Of a stretch of DNA of 64,000 nt, positions 7,421-10,466 are shown piece by piece. Both the position numbers and the translations under genes were made by a program. Each line of letters opens with the position of its first letter. Position 1 is the stretch's first letter. The stretch comes from Erythrobacteraceae bacterium. GTDB lineage: Bacteria; Pseudomonadota; Alphaproteobacteria; Sphingomonadales; Sphingomonadaceae. The notes beneath the pieces were generated by a model, which saw only the letters and a program-made list of their open reading frames with translations, was not told the origin of the DNA and did no database searches. The DNA lies in NCBI GenBank assembly GCA_947479055.1, contig CANJYE010000010.1, positions 1-64,000 of the forward strand, in the 5' to 3' direction.

Positions 7421-8701
7421 TCATGGACGGGTCTGGCCCGTTCCGCGCACCAGCCATTTGTATGTGGTCAGCCCTTCCAGTGCCACCGGCCCGCGCGCAT
7501 GCAGCCGCCCGGTGGCGATGCCGATCTCCGCGCCAAGGCCGAATTCCCCGCCATCGGCGAACTGGCTGGAGGCATTGACCATCACGATCGCGCTATCGAC
7601 TTCGGCCAGGAACCGCTCTGCCGCGTCGGCATCCGCCGTGATGATCGCATCGGTATGGCTGGAGCTGTGGCGGGCGATATGTTCCAGCGCCGCGTCCAGC
7701 CCATCGACGACCGCGACCGACAGTTCCGCATCGAGATATTCGGTGTCCCAGTCATTGGCGCTGGCGATGCCGATGCGGGGATCGAGCGCCTGCGCGCGCG
7801 CATCGCCACGCAAGGCGCAGCCCGCGTCGATCAGCGCGTTGACTACCTCGCCCGAGGCGGGGAAACAGGCGTCGAGCAGCAGCGTCTCCATCGCCCCGCA
7901 AATGCCGGTGCGGCGCATCTTGGCGTTGAGCGCGACGCTTTTCGCCATGGCAGGATCGGCAGCGGAATGGACATAGGTGTGGCAGATGCCATCGAGATGG
8001 GCGAGAACGGGAACCCGCGCATCGGCCTGCACCCGCGCAACCAGGCTCTTGCCGCCGCGCGGCACGATCATGTCGATCAGCCCGGCGGCCTGCAGCATCG
8101 CCCCCACTGCCGCGCGGTCCTGCGTCGGCATCAGCTGGACCGCATCGGCGGGCACCCCGCCAGCGGCGAGGCCACTAGCCAGCGCGGCATGGATCGCACG
8201 GTTGGAATGGACCGCCTCGCTCCCGCCGCGCAGCAGCACGGCGTTGCCCGCCCGCACGCACAACGCAGCGGCATCGGCAGTCACATTGGGGCGGCTCTCA
8301 TAGATGATCCCGATCAGACCGATCGGCACACGCACGCGGGAGAGGTGCAGGCCGTTGGGCCGCTCGGTCCGATCGATCACCTTGCCGATCGGATCGGGCA
8401 GGTCGGCCACGGCATCGACCGCATCCGCGATTCCGGCCAGCCGGGCGGGATCGAGCCGCAGCCGGTCGAGCATCGCGCCGGTAAGGCCATTCGCCTCGCC
8501 GGCGGCAAGGTCCGTGGCATTCGCGGCCAGGACTTCGACCTCCGCCGCGCGCAGGGCCATGGCGGCCTGGTGGAGGGCAGCGGACTTGGCTGCGTCGCTC
8601 ATCCGGGCGAGCTGGCGCTGGGCCGCGCGGCCGACGGTGGCGAGCCCGGCGACAAGCGCGACGGGGTCCTTCTCGGACAGGGTGGCAGGTTTGGTAGACA
8701 T
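7421..8701 (-). CDS. proA: Gamma-glutamyl phosphate reductase
   Basis: ProA reduces glutamyl 5-phosphate to glutamate semialdehyde with NADPH in proline synthesis. At 426 residues it has the usual length and an aldehyde-dehydrogenase fold. The catalytic Cys is in RRTGICGAMETLL (about residue 265), and the conserved YESRPNVT and ALEGLTTYK segments are present. The partner proB is not in the window; in related genomes it would lie upstream, but here a GANTC-rich gap and a divergent M23 gene stand there. Confidence 0.93.
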   Translation of the reverse strand: MSTKPATLSEKDPVALVAGLATVGRAAQRQLARMSDAAKSAALHQAAMALRAAEVEVLAANATDLAAGEANGLTGAMLDRLRLDPARLAGIADAVDAVADLPDPIGKVIDRTERPNGLHLSRVRVPIGLIGIIYESRPNVTADAAALCVRAGNAVLLRGGSEAVHSNRAIHAALASGLAAGGVPADAVQLMPTQDRAAVGAMLQAAGLIDMIVPRGGKSLVARVQADARVPVLAHLDGICHTYVHSAADPAMAKSVALNAKMRRTGICGAMETLLLDACFPASGEVVNALIDAGCALRGDARAQALDPRIGIASANDWDTEYLDAELSVAVVDGLDAALEHIARHSSSHTDAIITADADAAERFLAEVDSAIVMVNASSQFADGGEFGLGAEIGIATGRLHARGPVALEGLTTYKWLVRGTGQTRP

Positions 8702-8753
8702 GGCGCCGAGCTAGCACCGTGCAGGCCATTTGTCAGTCCGGGAATTGTGGCAG

Positions 8754-8889
8754 CGAATCGCCTGCGCGAATCGCATAACGCCAACGTTGACGATTCGTCT
8801 GCCATGAGAAATCGAATCGCAAGCAACCGAAACGATTCATCGCGCAAGTGTCTCGATTCAACTCACACCCGGGAGAGTCGGTTGGATTC
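8754..8889. promoter_or_regulatory. Cluster of eight GANTC sites in the proA/M23 divergent gap
   Basis: GANTC begins at 8755, 8768, 8792, 8814, 8834, 8855, 8875 and 8885. Four of the sites extend to the 7-base palindrome CGANTCG (8754, 8767, 8791 and 8813). Five successive sites (8792 to 8875) are spaced 20-22 bases apart, about two helical turns. GANTC is the CcrM methylation site of alphaproteobacteria, expected about once per 256 bases by chance. The gap contains the promoters of proA (left) and of the M23-bactofilin pair (right). A regulatory role is inferred. Confidence 0.6.
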
Positions 8890-8941
8890 ATCCCGGGGAA
8901 CGGTTAGCGCGCCGCAAACCAATCAGGGGTAGGGTCCACTT

Positions 8942-10090
8942 TTGCCGCATCGCAAACTCGAAGCCGCATGGCGCTGGCTGCGAGAACTGTTTCCCGATCG
9001 CGAATTCTTCATGCGCTCGCAGGGACAGGTCCGCTTTGTCAGATTGTCGTCGCGCGTCCAGGCGTTTACCGCGCTTGGGGTGGTTTCGGCTGTGCTGGTC
9101 TATGTCGTGTCGATGGCCGGCATGGCGATCAGCCGTTATAGCGAGCGGGCCGATTATCTCGCCCTGCTGGAACGCGAAGCCAAGGTCGCCACGGCCGAAA
9201 GCCGCGTCTCGGCCTATCGCAAGGATATCGATGGGGTCGCCGACGATCTGGCCCGCCGCCAGAACTTCATCGAGGAAATGGTCGAAGGCCTGCCTTCGGA
9301 CGTCAAGAAGGGCGAAACCGTCTCCGACAGCAGCGGCGAAGCGGACAAGACAGTCGCCAAGGTCAGCGCCGCCCTGCCCGAAGCCGGCCAGCTCGCCCGG
9401 ATAGAAGCACGCCAGCTGGCCTTTGTCGAAAAGCTCACCCGCTATGCCGACCGCCGTTCGCAGCGCGCCGCCGAAGCAATCCAGAAGCTCGGGCTGGACC
9501 CGCGCCGGATGCTGGTCAATTCGCGCGAAAGCGTGGGCGGTCCGCTGTTGCGGCTCAGCACCAGCCGCGACGGATCGATCGATCCCCGGTTTGAGCGGCT
9601 CGGCCTCAGTCTCGCCCGGATGGAAGCGCTGGAACGCGGCCTCACGGCGATCCCGCAAGTGATGCCGGCCAATTACGACTTCATCTCTTCCGGCTTCGGT
9701 TATCGCCGCGATCCTTTCACCGGCGCTGGCGCAATGCATGCCGGGCTCGATTTCCGCGGCCCGATCGGGTCACCGATCCACGCCGCCGCCAAGGGCGTGA
9801 TCAGCTTTGTCGGGCAGAAGTCCGGCTATGGCAATTGCATCGAAGTCAGCCACGGCAGCGGGCTGATGACCCGCTATGCCCATATGTCCGCCTTCCACGC
9901 CCGGTTGGGCCAGGAGGTTGCCGCCGGCGACGTGATCGGTGCGATCGGCAGCACGGGCCGCTCGACCGGACCGCACCTCCATTTCGAGGTGCGGATCAAC
10001 GACCGTGCGGTCAATCCGCGCCCTTTCCTGGAGTCTGCTCCCCATGTTCTCGAAGAAGCCCGCGCAGCAGGAGCGCAGCCTCGTGGCTAG
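8942..10090 (+). CDS. Membrane-anchored M23 peptidoglycan endopeptidase (LmdC-like)
   Basis: The protein has about 382 residues: a short cytoplasmic N-terminus with FPDREFFMRSQGQVRF, one membrane helix (about residues 38-62), a periplasmic coiled coil, and a C-terminal M23 domain (about residues 245-355). Zinc motifs HAGLDF and HLHFEVR are intact, so it should cut peptide cross-links. The start is a TTG at 8942 with AGGG about 8 bases upstream. A later ATG at 9011 would drop the cytoplasmic tail that relatives keep. It overlaps the bactofilin gene by 47 bases, and in stalk-forming alphaproteobacteria such a tail is known to bind bactofilin. Confidence 0.85.
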   Translation: MPHRKLEAAWRWLRELFPDREFFMRSQGQVRFVRLSSRVQAFTALGVVSAVLVYVVSMAGMAISRYSERADYLALLEREAKVATAESRVSAYRKDIDGVADDLARRQNFIEEMVEGLPSDVKKGETVSDSSGEADKTVAKVSAALPEAGQLARIEARQLAFVEKLTRYADRRSQRAAEAIQKLGLDPRRMLVNSRESVGGPLLRLSTSRDGSIDPRFERLGLSLARMEALERGLTAIPQVMPANYDFISSGFGYRRDPFTGAGAMHAGLDFRGPIGSPIHAAAKGVISFVGQKSGYGNCIEVSHGSGLMTRYAHMSAFHARLGQEVAAGDVIGAIGSTGRSTGPHLHFEVRINDRAVNPRPFLESAPHVLEEARAAGAQPRG

Positions 10091-10466
10091 GGCATCGACC
10101 TTTTCCGTGATCGGCCCCGACGTGACGATCAAGGGCGATATCACCGCCTCGGCTGACCTGCATGTCGATGGCCGGATCGAAGGCGATATCGCCTGTTCCT
10201 CGCTCGTCCAGGGCGAGGGCAGCGTGGTGGTGGGCGCGATCGAAGCGGAAAGCGCCCGGCTGGCCGGACAGGTCAGGGGCACGATCACCGCGCGCGATCT
10301 GGTGGTGCTGAAATCCGCCCGAATCGAAGGCGATGTCCATTATGATGCGCTGACGATCGAACAGGGCGCACAGGTCGAAGGCCGCTTCGCCCATCGCGTG
10401 CGAGGCAAGCACGCCGAAGGCACCCCCGGCGAGGATGGCGAGCCAAGGTTGACGCTGGCCAGCTAA
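10044..10466 (+). CDS. Bactofilin (polymer-forming cytoskeletal protein)
   Basis: The protein has about 140 residues. After a short basic leader (MFSKKPAQQER) it is a right-handed beta-helix built of short turns rich in Gly, Asp and Val: FSVIGPDVTIKGDI, LHVDGRIEGDI, and so on. This is the DUF583/bactofilin pattern. Bactofilins self-assemble without nucleotide and recruit cell-wall enzymes. The start at 10044 has GGAG about 10 bases upstream and lies inside the M23 gene, implying coupled translation and a working partnership with that enzyme. Confidence 0.9.
   Translation: MFSKKPAQQERSLVARASTFSVIGPDVTIKGDITASADLHVDGRIEGDIACSSLVQGEGSVVVGAIEAESARLAGQVRGTITARDLVVLKSARIEGDVHYDALTIEQGAQVEGRFAHRVRGKHAEGTPGEDGEPRLTLAS

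Follow-up and report, generated by a model that had tools for sequence, protein, structure and literature searches.

A conserved GANTC cluster upstream of an lmdC-bacA-like operon: a candidate CcrM/GcrA-type promoter suggesting replication-timed cell-shape remodelling

Background

Modules made of a bactofilin, a cytoskeletal protein, and an M23 peptidase, which cuts the cell wall, shape many bacteria, and we found no account of how the synthesis of these proteins is timed. This question is raised by a locus of an Erythrobacteraceae bacterium (assembly GCA_947479055.1, contig CANJYE010000010.1, positions 1 to 64,000; this whole stretch of 64,000 nucleotides is referred to as the window), where copies of GANTC, the target of the cell-cycle methylase CcrM, are crowded in front of an M23 peptidase gene and a bactofilin gene. 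What does such a cluster serve, and is it kept in related organisms? With a conserved group of CcrM sites whose density equals that in front of ccrM, a direct link between the state of replication and the remodelling of the wall becomes testable.

In Caulobacter, a set of genes is activated by GcrA, which binds both methylated promoters and sigma-70 (PMC7403470, PMC3667746), and at the P1 promoter of C. crescentus ctrA it contacts the -35 element and the adjacent GANTC (PMC3667746). Caulobacter ccrM itself is most probably controlled by methylation (PMC3973325). The location of a site is important in this organism, as GANTC between -35 and -10 is associated with mid-cycle activation and GANTC outside this spacer with the opposite, and more than one GANTC within 50 bp is found at 11 of the 96 cell-cycle start sites that have GANTC (PMC4287350). 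GANTC-rich promoters of cell-cycle genes are already known, in Sphingomonadales for ctrA, whose promoters in this order and in Caulobacterales contain up to five or six GANTC in 300 bp (PMC8116508), and where GANTC is conserved in front of orthologous genes, regulation by GcrA has been considered possible (PMC7987155). We found no report that names lmdC-bacA among the targets of CcrM or GcrA in the open-licence literature, searched for bactofilin with GcrA or GANTC, and the literature examined held no description of cell-cycle control of this operon. The main text of the paper on lmdC-bacA does not mention GcrA; it describes lmdC as essential in Hyphomonas, with a level that appears to need precise control (PMC10945521).

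Methods

Thirty loci from relatives and 80 named loci, mostly from Erythrobacteraceae and Novosphingobium, were collected, and removal of duplicates and short ends left 98 distinct loci, the window included. Promoter blocks were read from the alignment of these 98 loci, and occurrences per block were counted on the 73 loci that remained after thinning to less than 70% identity. Chained GANTC sites (three sites with gaps of 5-30) were searched for in all 94 contigs of the genome to which the window belongs and in four relatives.

Results and discussion

The locus and its GANTC cluster

The features of the locus are listed in Table 1. The M23 peptidase gene (PF01551) overlaps the bactofilin gene (PF04519) by 47 bp, the arrangement by which an LmdC-BacA module is recognised and likewise that of the lmdC-bacA operon described in Hyphomonas neptunium and in Rhodospirillum rubrum (PMC10945521). 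The start of lmdC is an aligned TTG in 89 of the 98 loci. TTG is a weak start codon, and its retention suggests that low translation of the endopeptidase may be under selection.

Table 1. Coordinates of genes and putative control elements in the window
Feature	Position	Strand	Remarks
proA-like gene, divergent neighbour	7421..8701	-	Pfam Aldedh
GANTC (CcrM target) cluster, eight sites	8755..8889	.	Starts 8755, 8768, 8792, 8814, 8834, 8855, 8875, 8885
Extra copy of repeat unit, CGATTCGTC	8791..8799	+	Two 21-bp steps (42 bp) ahead of block A; read from sequence
Block A, operator-like, AACGATTCATCGC	8831..8843	+	Family consensus AACGNYTCRTCSC; alignment of 98 loci; overlaps GANTC 8834
Block B, operator-like, CGATTCAACT	8854..8863	+	Consensus CGAYTCRNCS; 21 bp past block A; overlaps GANTC 8855
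Two GANTC sites at predicted -35 region (block C)	8875..8889	+	Relatives mostly GATTCGAC; GANTC in 55/73
Predicted -35, TTGGAT	8882..8887	+	From family alignment; 17-bp spacer to -10
Predicted -10, GGTTAGC	8902..8908	+	Family consensus TGYTAGC, with the A kept in all 98 loci
Ribosome-binding region	8926..8937	+	GGGGTCG conserved in relatives
M23 peptidase, LmdC-like	8942..10090	+	Pfam PF01551, E 2.7e-34; start codon TTG
Bactofilin, BacA-like	10044..10466	+	Pfam PF04519, E 1e-25 on ORF 9939-10463; start set at ATG 10044

The original prediction, made from the window alone, described eight GANTC within 136 bp, with gaps of 22, 20, 21 and 20 bp between the sites from 8792 to 8875 and the long palindrome CGANTCG at four sites, and all of this is borne out, the palindromes being the first four of the eight sites. 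The chance rate of one per 256 bp on which it relied has to be replaced by a window background of about one per 610 bp. With 105 GANTC observed in the window against 271 +/- 16 expected from dinucleotide-preserving shuffles, GANTC is an avoided word, and the cluster is therefore more striking than had been supposed. Outside the cluster, the densest 136-bp stretch of the window contains three sites, and the Poisson probability of at least eight is 7e-11 per 136-bp stretch, or approximately 2e-4 over 3 Mb. Similar density in many unrelated gaps, which had been named as a point against the prediction, was not encountered: chained sites occur at about 20 other places in the genome, copies of one repeated element not counted, and more than four chained sites are found only at 8755-8889 across the 94 contigs.

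Conservation and ownership of the cluster

Comparison of the gap between proA and the peptidase gene across relatives establishes that the dense GANTC cluster upstream of the M23-bactofilin operon is evolutionarily conserved. The 200 bp before the start codon hold 413 GANTC over the 98 loci (21/kb), approximately 11-fold more than the 1.9/kb inside the gene, and a first-order Markov model of each upstream region yields a mean of 106 (sd 10). At least one GANTC is present upstream of lmdC in all 98 loci, and the 73 thinned loci have a mean of 4.2 and none lacks a site; since the loci share ancestry, these density figures demonstrate conservation and not independent events. No other palindromic pentamer is comparably enriched upstream of lmdC in the 98 loci, the high ratio of TANTA being based on 12 copies. 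Certain loci of the family carry merely one or two GANTC, and several more distant bactofilin-bearing members have lost the cluster. Five distant lmdC-like genes of another family have a single conserved GATTCGT at approximately -44 to -65 relative to the aligned start.

The two leftmost sites are 54-67 bp away from the start of proA, as would be expected if the cluster belonged to the proA side. Relatives in which the genes are apart decide against this: GANTC upstream of proA falls to the background of 1.7/kb where lmdC is not adjacent, and lmdC retains 15-16/kb with or without an adjacent proA. As proA alone is at background and lmdC keeps its density without proA, the cluster belongs to lmdC, and ownership of the core cluster by proA is refuted; the two leftmost sites could serve proA. 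An origin by chance or as an assembly artefact conflicts with the agreement among independent genomes, and we find it, like the assignment to proA, scarcely credible.

The helical ladder

The spacing of the sites fared differently from their density. Five of them had been proposed to form a phased array facing one side of the helix, and this array is not conserved, the window being the only one of 98 loci with four consecutive gaps of 19-23 bp. No general helical periodicity is seen in the GANTC positions of the 98 loci (vector length 0.09 at 10.5 bp), and the eight sites of the window, taken together, show no significant period near 10.5 bp (P 0.13). When eight sites are placed in 136 bp, a run of four gaps of 19-23 bp arises with a P of approximately 0.001; the pattern was chosen post hoc, and the statistical significance of the array is modest. 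Loss of both sites and spacing in relatives had been named as counter-evidence; the sites are kept in 98 loci and the five-site spacing is not. The ladder includes blocks A and B (Table 1), a GANTC at -20/-21 from block A that the window has in common with its two closest relatives, and sites at -42 and +41 from A that complete it in the window. The +41 site occurs in 11 loci, and of the 45 closest loci listed none but the window has GANTC at the 8791-8799 position. The four-gap ladder is unique to the window among the 98 loci, and the phased array is thus an elaboration of this lineage.

Promoter elements and a 21-bp direct repeat

Conservation in the alignment identifies a predicted -35 and -10 pair before lmdC, and relative to the start site that these elements predict, the GANTC at 8885 and 8875 lie at approximately -32 and -42; the -35 GANTC of most relatives lies at approximately -38 to -34. 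GANTC would overlap or adjoin the putative -35 box, and at this block C GANTC is found in 55 and YTCR in 56 of the 73 thinned loci. A generic consensus promoter and terminator scan, which needs a TATAAT-like hexamer, reported no sigma-70 promoter and no terminator, and Rfam gave no match. Motifs of CenR, ChvI, CtrA, LexA and DnaA were absent from 8702-8941 of the window and occurred upstream in 0 to 11 of the 98 loci, with no clear excess over the interior of the gene.

Farther upstream, at 8833 and 8854, lie the two units of a 21-bp direct repeat, CGNYTCRNCS, whose conservation is stricter than that of GANTC. In block A a C, a T and a C are invariant throughout the 98-locus alignment, and YTCR is present in 68 of the 73 thinned loci and GANTC in 28; the corresponding numbers for block B are 68 and 42. 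Because YTCR is kept at both blocks even where GANTC has been lost, we read them as a putatively protein-bound direct repeat with GANTC placed on and around it, and the arrangement looks like a putative operator with overlaid GANTC sites. Part of the GANTC density could accordingly stem from another motif.

The original prediction had allowed for operator sites of a protein as an alternative, and the repeat supports this in part. In the strict form of this reading, a putative transcription factor would bind CGNYTCRNCS units two helical turns apart, GANTC would arise largely by resemblance, and methylation would be incidental. The greater persistence of the repeat than of GANTC at A and B speaks for this, as do at least three relatives that keep the repeat without GANTC there and the further site at -20/-21 from block A in the window and its two closest relatives. 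However, such an operator leaves unexplained the GANTC between A and B (32/73, with YTCR in 9/73), the -35 GANTC and the sites farther upstream (10/kb), and none of the tested motifs fits it. We consider an operator of this kind, with methylation playing no part, rather unlikely. A search of 24 genomes for further genes with the 21-bp repeat returned mostly coding-looking matches and no common target, and no regulon was established. In two relatives, 21-bp repeats similar to TTCATCGC-N13-TTCATCGC, resembling lmdC blocks A and B, lie just upstream of a gloA-like gene, recognised by eye from its translation as glyoxalase I-like.

CcrM, GcrA and the proposed cell-cycle control

The genome encodes both proteins that methylation-dependent control would require. 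The absence of a ccrM gene had been named as decisive against a methylation-timed switch; CcrM is present with methylase and RAMA domains (N6_N4_Mtase, E 2.7e-63), and so is GcrA (PF07750, E 2.4e-36, over the cut-off). The regions upstream of ccrM in 30 relatives have 22 GANTC/kb (5.5 per 250 bp), as dense as lmdC, and those upstream of dnaA have 7.6/kb. The GANTC density of the family ccrM promoter is thus equal to that of lmdC and conserved across relatives, but, unlike lmdC, most ccrM promoters contain a DnaA-box-like TGTGGATAA, and inspection by eye shows no CGNYTCRNCS repeat in them.

Conservation of GANTC, the presence of GcrA and CcrM, the conserved -35 GANTC and the TGYTAGC -10 lead us to propose lmdC-bacA as a GcrA target. 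Our preferred reading, to which we assign a probability of roughly 0.62, is that the region serves the lmdC-bacA-like operon as a cell-cycle promoter of the CcrM/GcrA type; its methylation, its binding by GcrA and the timing are inferred. CcrM would methylate the GANTC sites of the promoter, replication of the locus would leave them hemimethylated until CcrM returns, and GcrA, acting with sigma-70 RNA polymerase, would sense how the sites near -35 are methylated. Endopeptidase and bactofilin would in this way be made at one fixed stage of the cell cycle. The upstream sites overlap the 21-bp direct repeat, which an inferred second protein would bind, and methylation may tune this binding. The variable central base of GANTC over all sites pooled counts in favour of CcrM/GcrA control. 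Against it stands the -35 GANTC of most relatives, which lies outside the -35/-10 spacer, and so do the negative promoter scan, the persistence of YTCR at A and B where GANTC is lost, and the loci with few sites or none. The original proposal of a methylation-timed switch is supported in part, by the encoded CcrM and GcrA, the conserved cluster before the operon and the small number of comparable places, and it is not supported for the helical array as such. These observations suggest a timing of cell-shape remodelling by DNA replication in this family of bacteria but do not prove it. The effect in Caulobacter depends on site position, and with the window sites at about -32 and -42 the sequence is compatible with activation and with repression by methylation, and with more than one timing.

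The known class of GANTC-containing promoters under CcrM/GcrA control, with those of Caulobacter ctrA (P1), ftsZ, mipZ, dnaA and ccrM, resembles the proposed one in having several CcrM sites before a growth or division gene, at or near a -35 element that here is a predicted one, in a genome that likewise has CcrM and GcrA. The lmdC-bacA promoter region differs from them in being denser (eight sites in 136 bp), in the overlap with a conserved 21-bp direct repeat, and in its target, lmdC-bacA; methylation sites overlapping a direct-repeat operator are a possible new variant. Tentatively, the two elements may form a composite switch in which the repeat units are themselves CcrM sites, methylation and the putative regulator act on shared bases, either in competition or in cooperation, and the ladder is a lineage extension. 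If true, bactofilin-guided remodelling of the wall would be coupled to the passing replication fork in an undescribed way.

Some Caulobacter and Sinorhizobium promoters are hypomethylated through shielding by MucR and can have two to four GANTC (PMC5172544), and the region could in principle be of this type. A search for ROS_MUCR (PF05443) gave no match in the genome of the window, which is 94.5% complete, and the same search was positive in Caulobacter, so shielding by MucR is very improbable here. Another protein, for example the putative binder of A and B, could act as a shield.

Other GANTC clusters

Places of comparable GANTC density are few, ccrM and nrdA being among them. The other GANTC triplets of the genome include one upstream of ccrM and one approximately 430-470 bp upstream of dnaA, and further clusters occur in or near aconitase, TonB-receptor, transporter and other genes, so that not all lie before cell-cycle genes. 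The ccrM promoters of loci L206-L219 have five to six GANTC on average, most with a GANTC pair directly before a DnaA-box-like CCTGTGGATAA. Two relatives have GANTC clusters upstream of nrdA, which encodes the ribonucleotide reductase large subunit, and in two relatives such clusters lie upstream of a kinase/pyrophosphorylase gene and a uroporphyrinogen decarboxylase gene, with no DnaA boxes of the searched form at these latter clusters. This last neighbourhood lies near the replication origin in some Alphaproteobacteria. One 42-bp sequence containing three GANTC (GATTCAGACTTTCAGCCGACAGGGAATCCCCCCATGTGAGTC) recurs unchanged on 16 contigs of the genome of the window, mostly near contig ends, and probably belongs to an insertion sequence at which the assembly broke.
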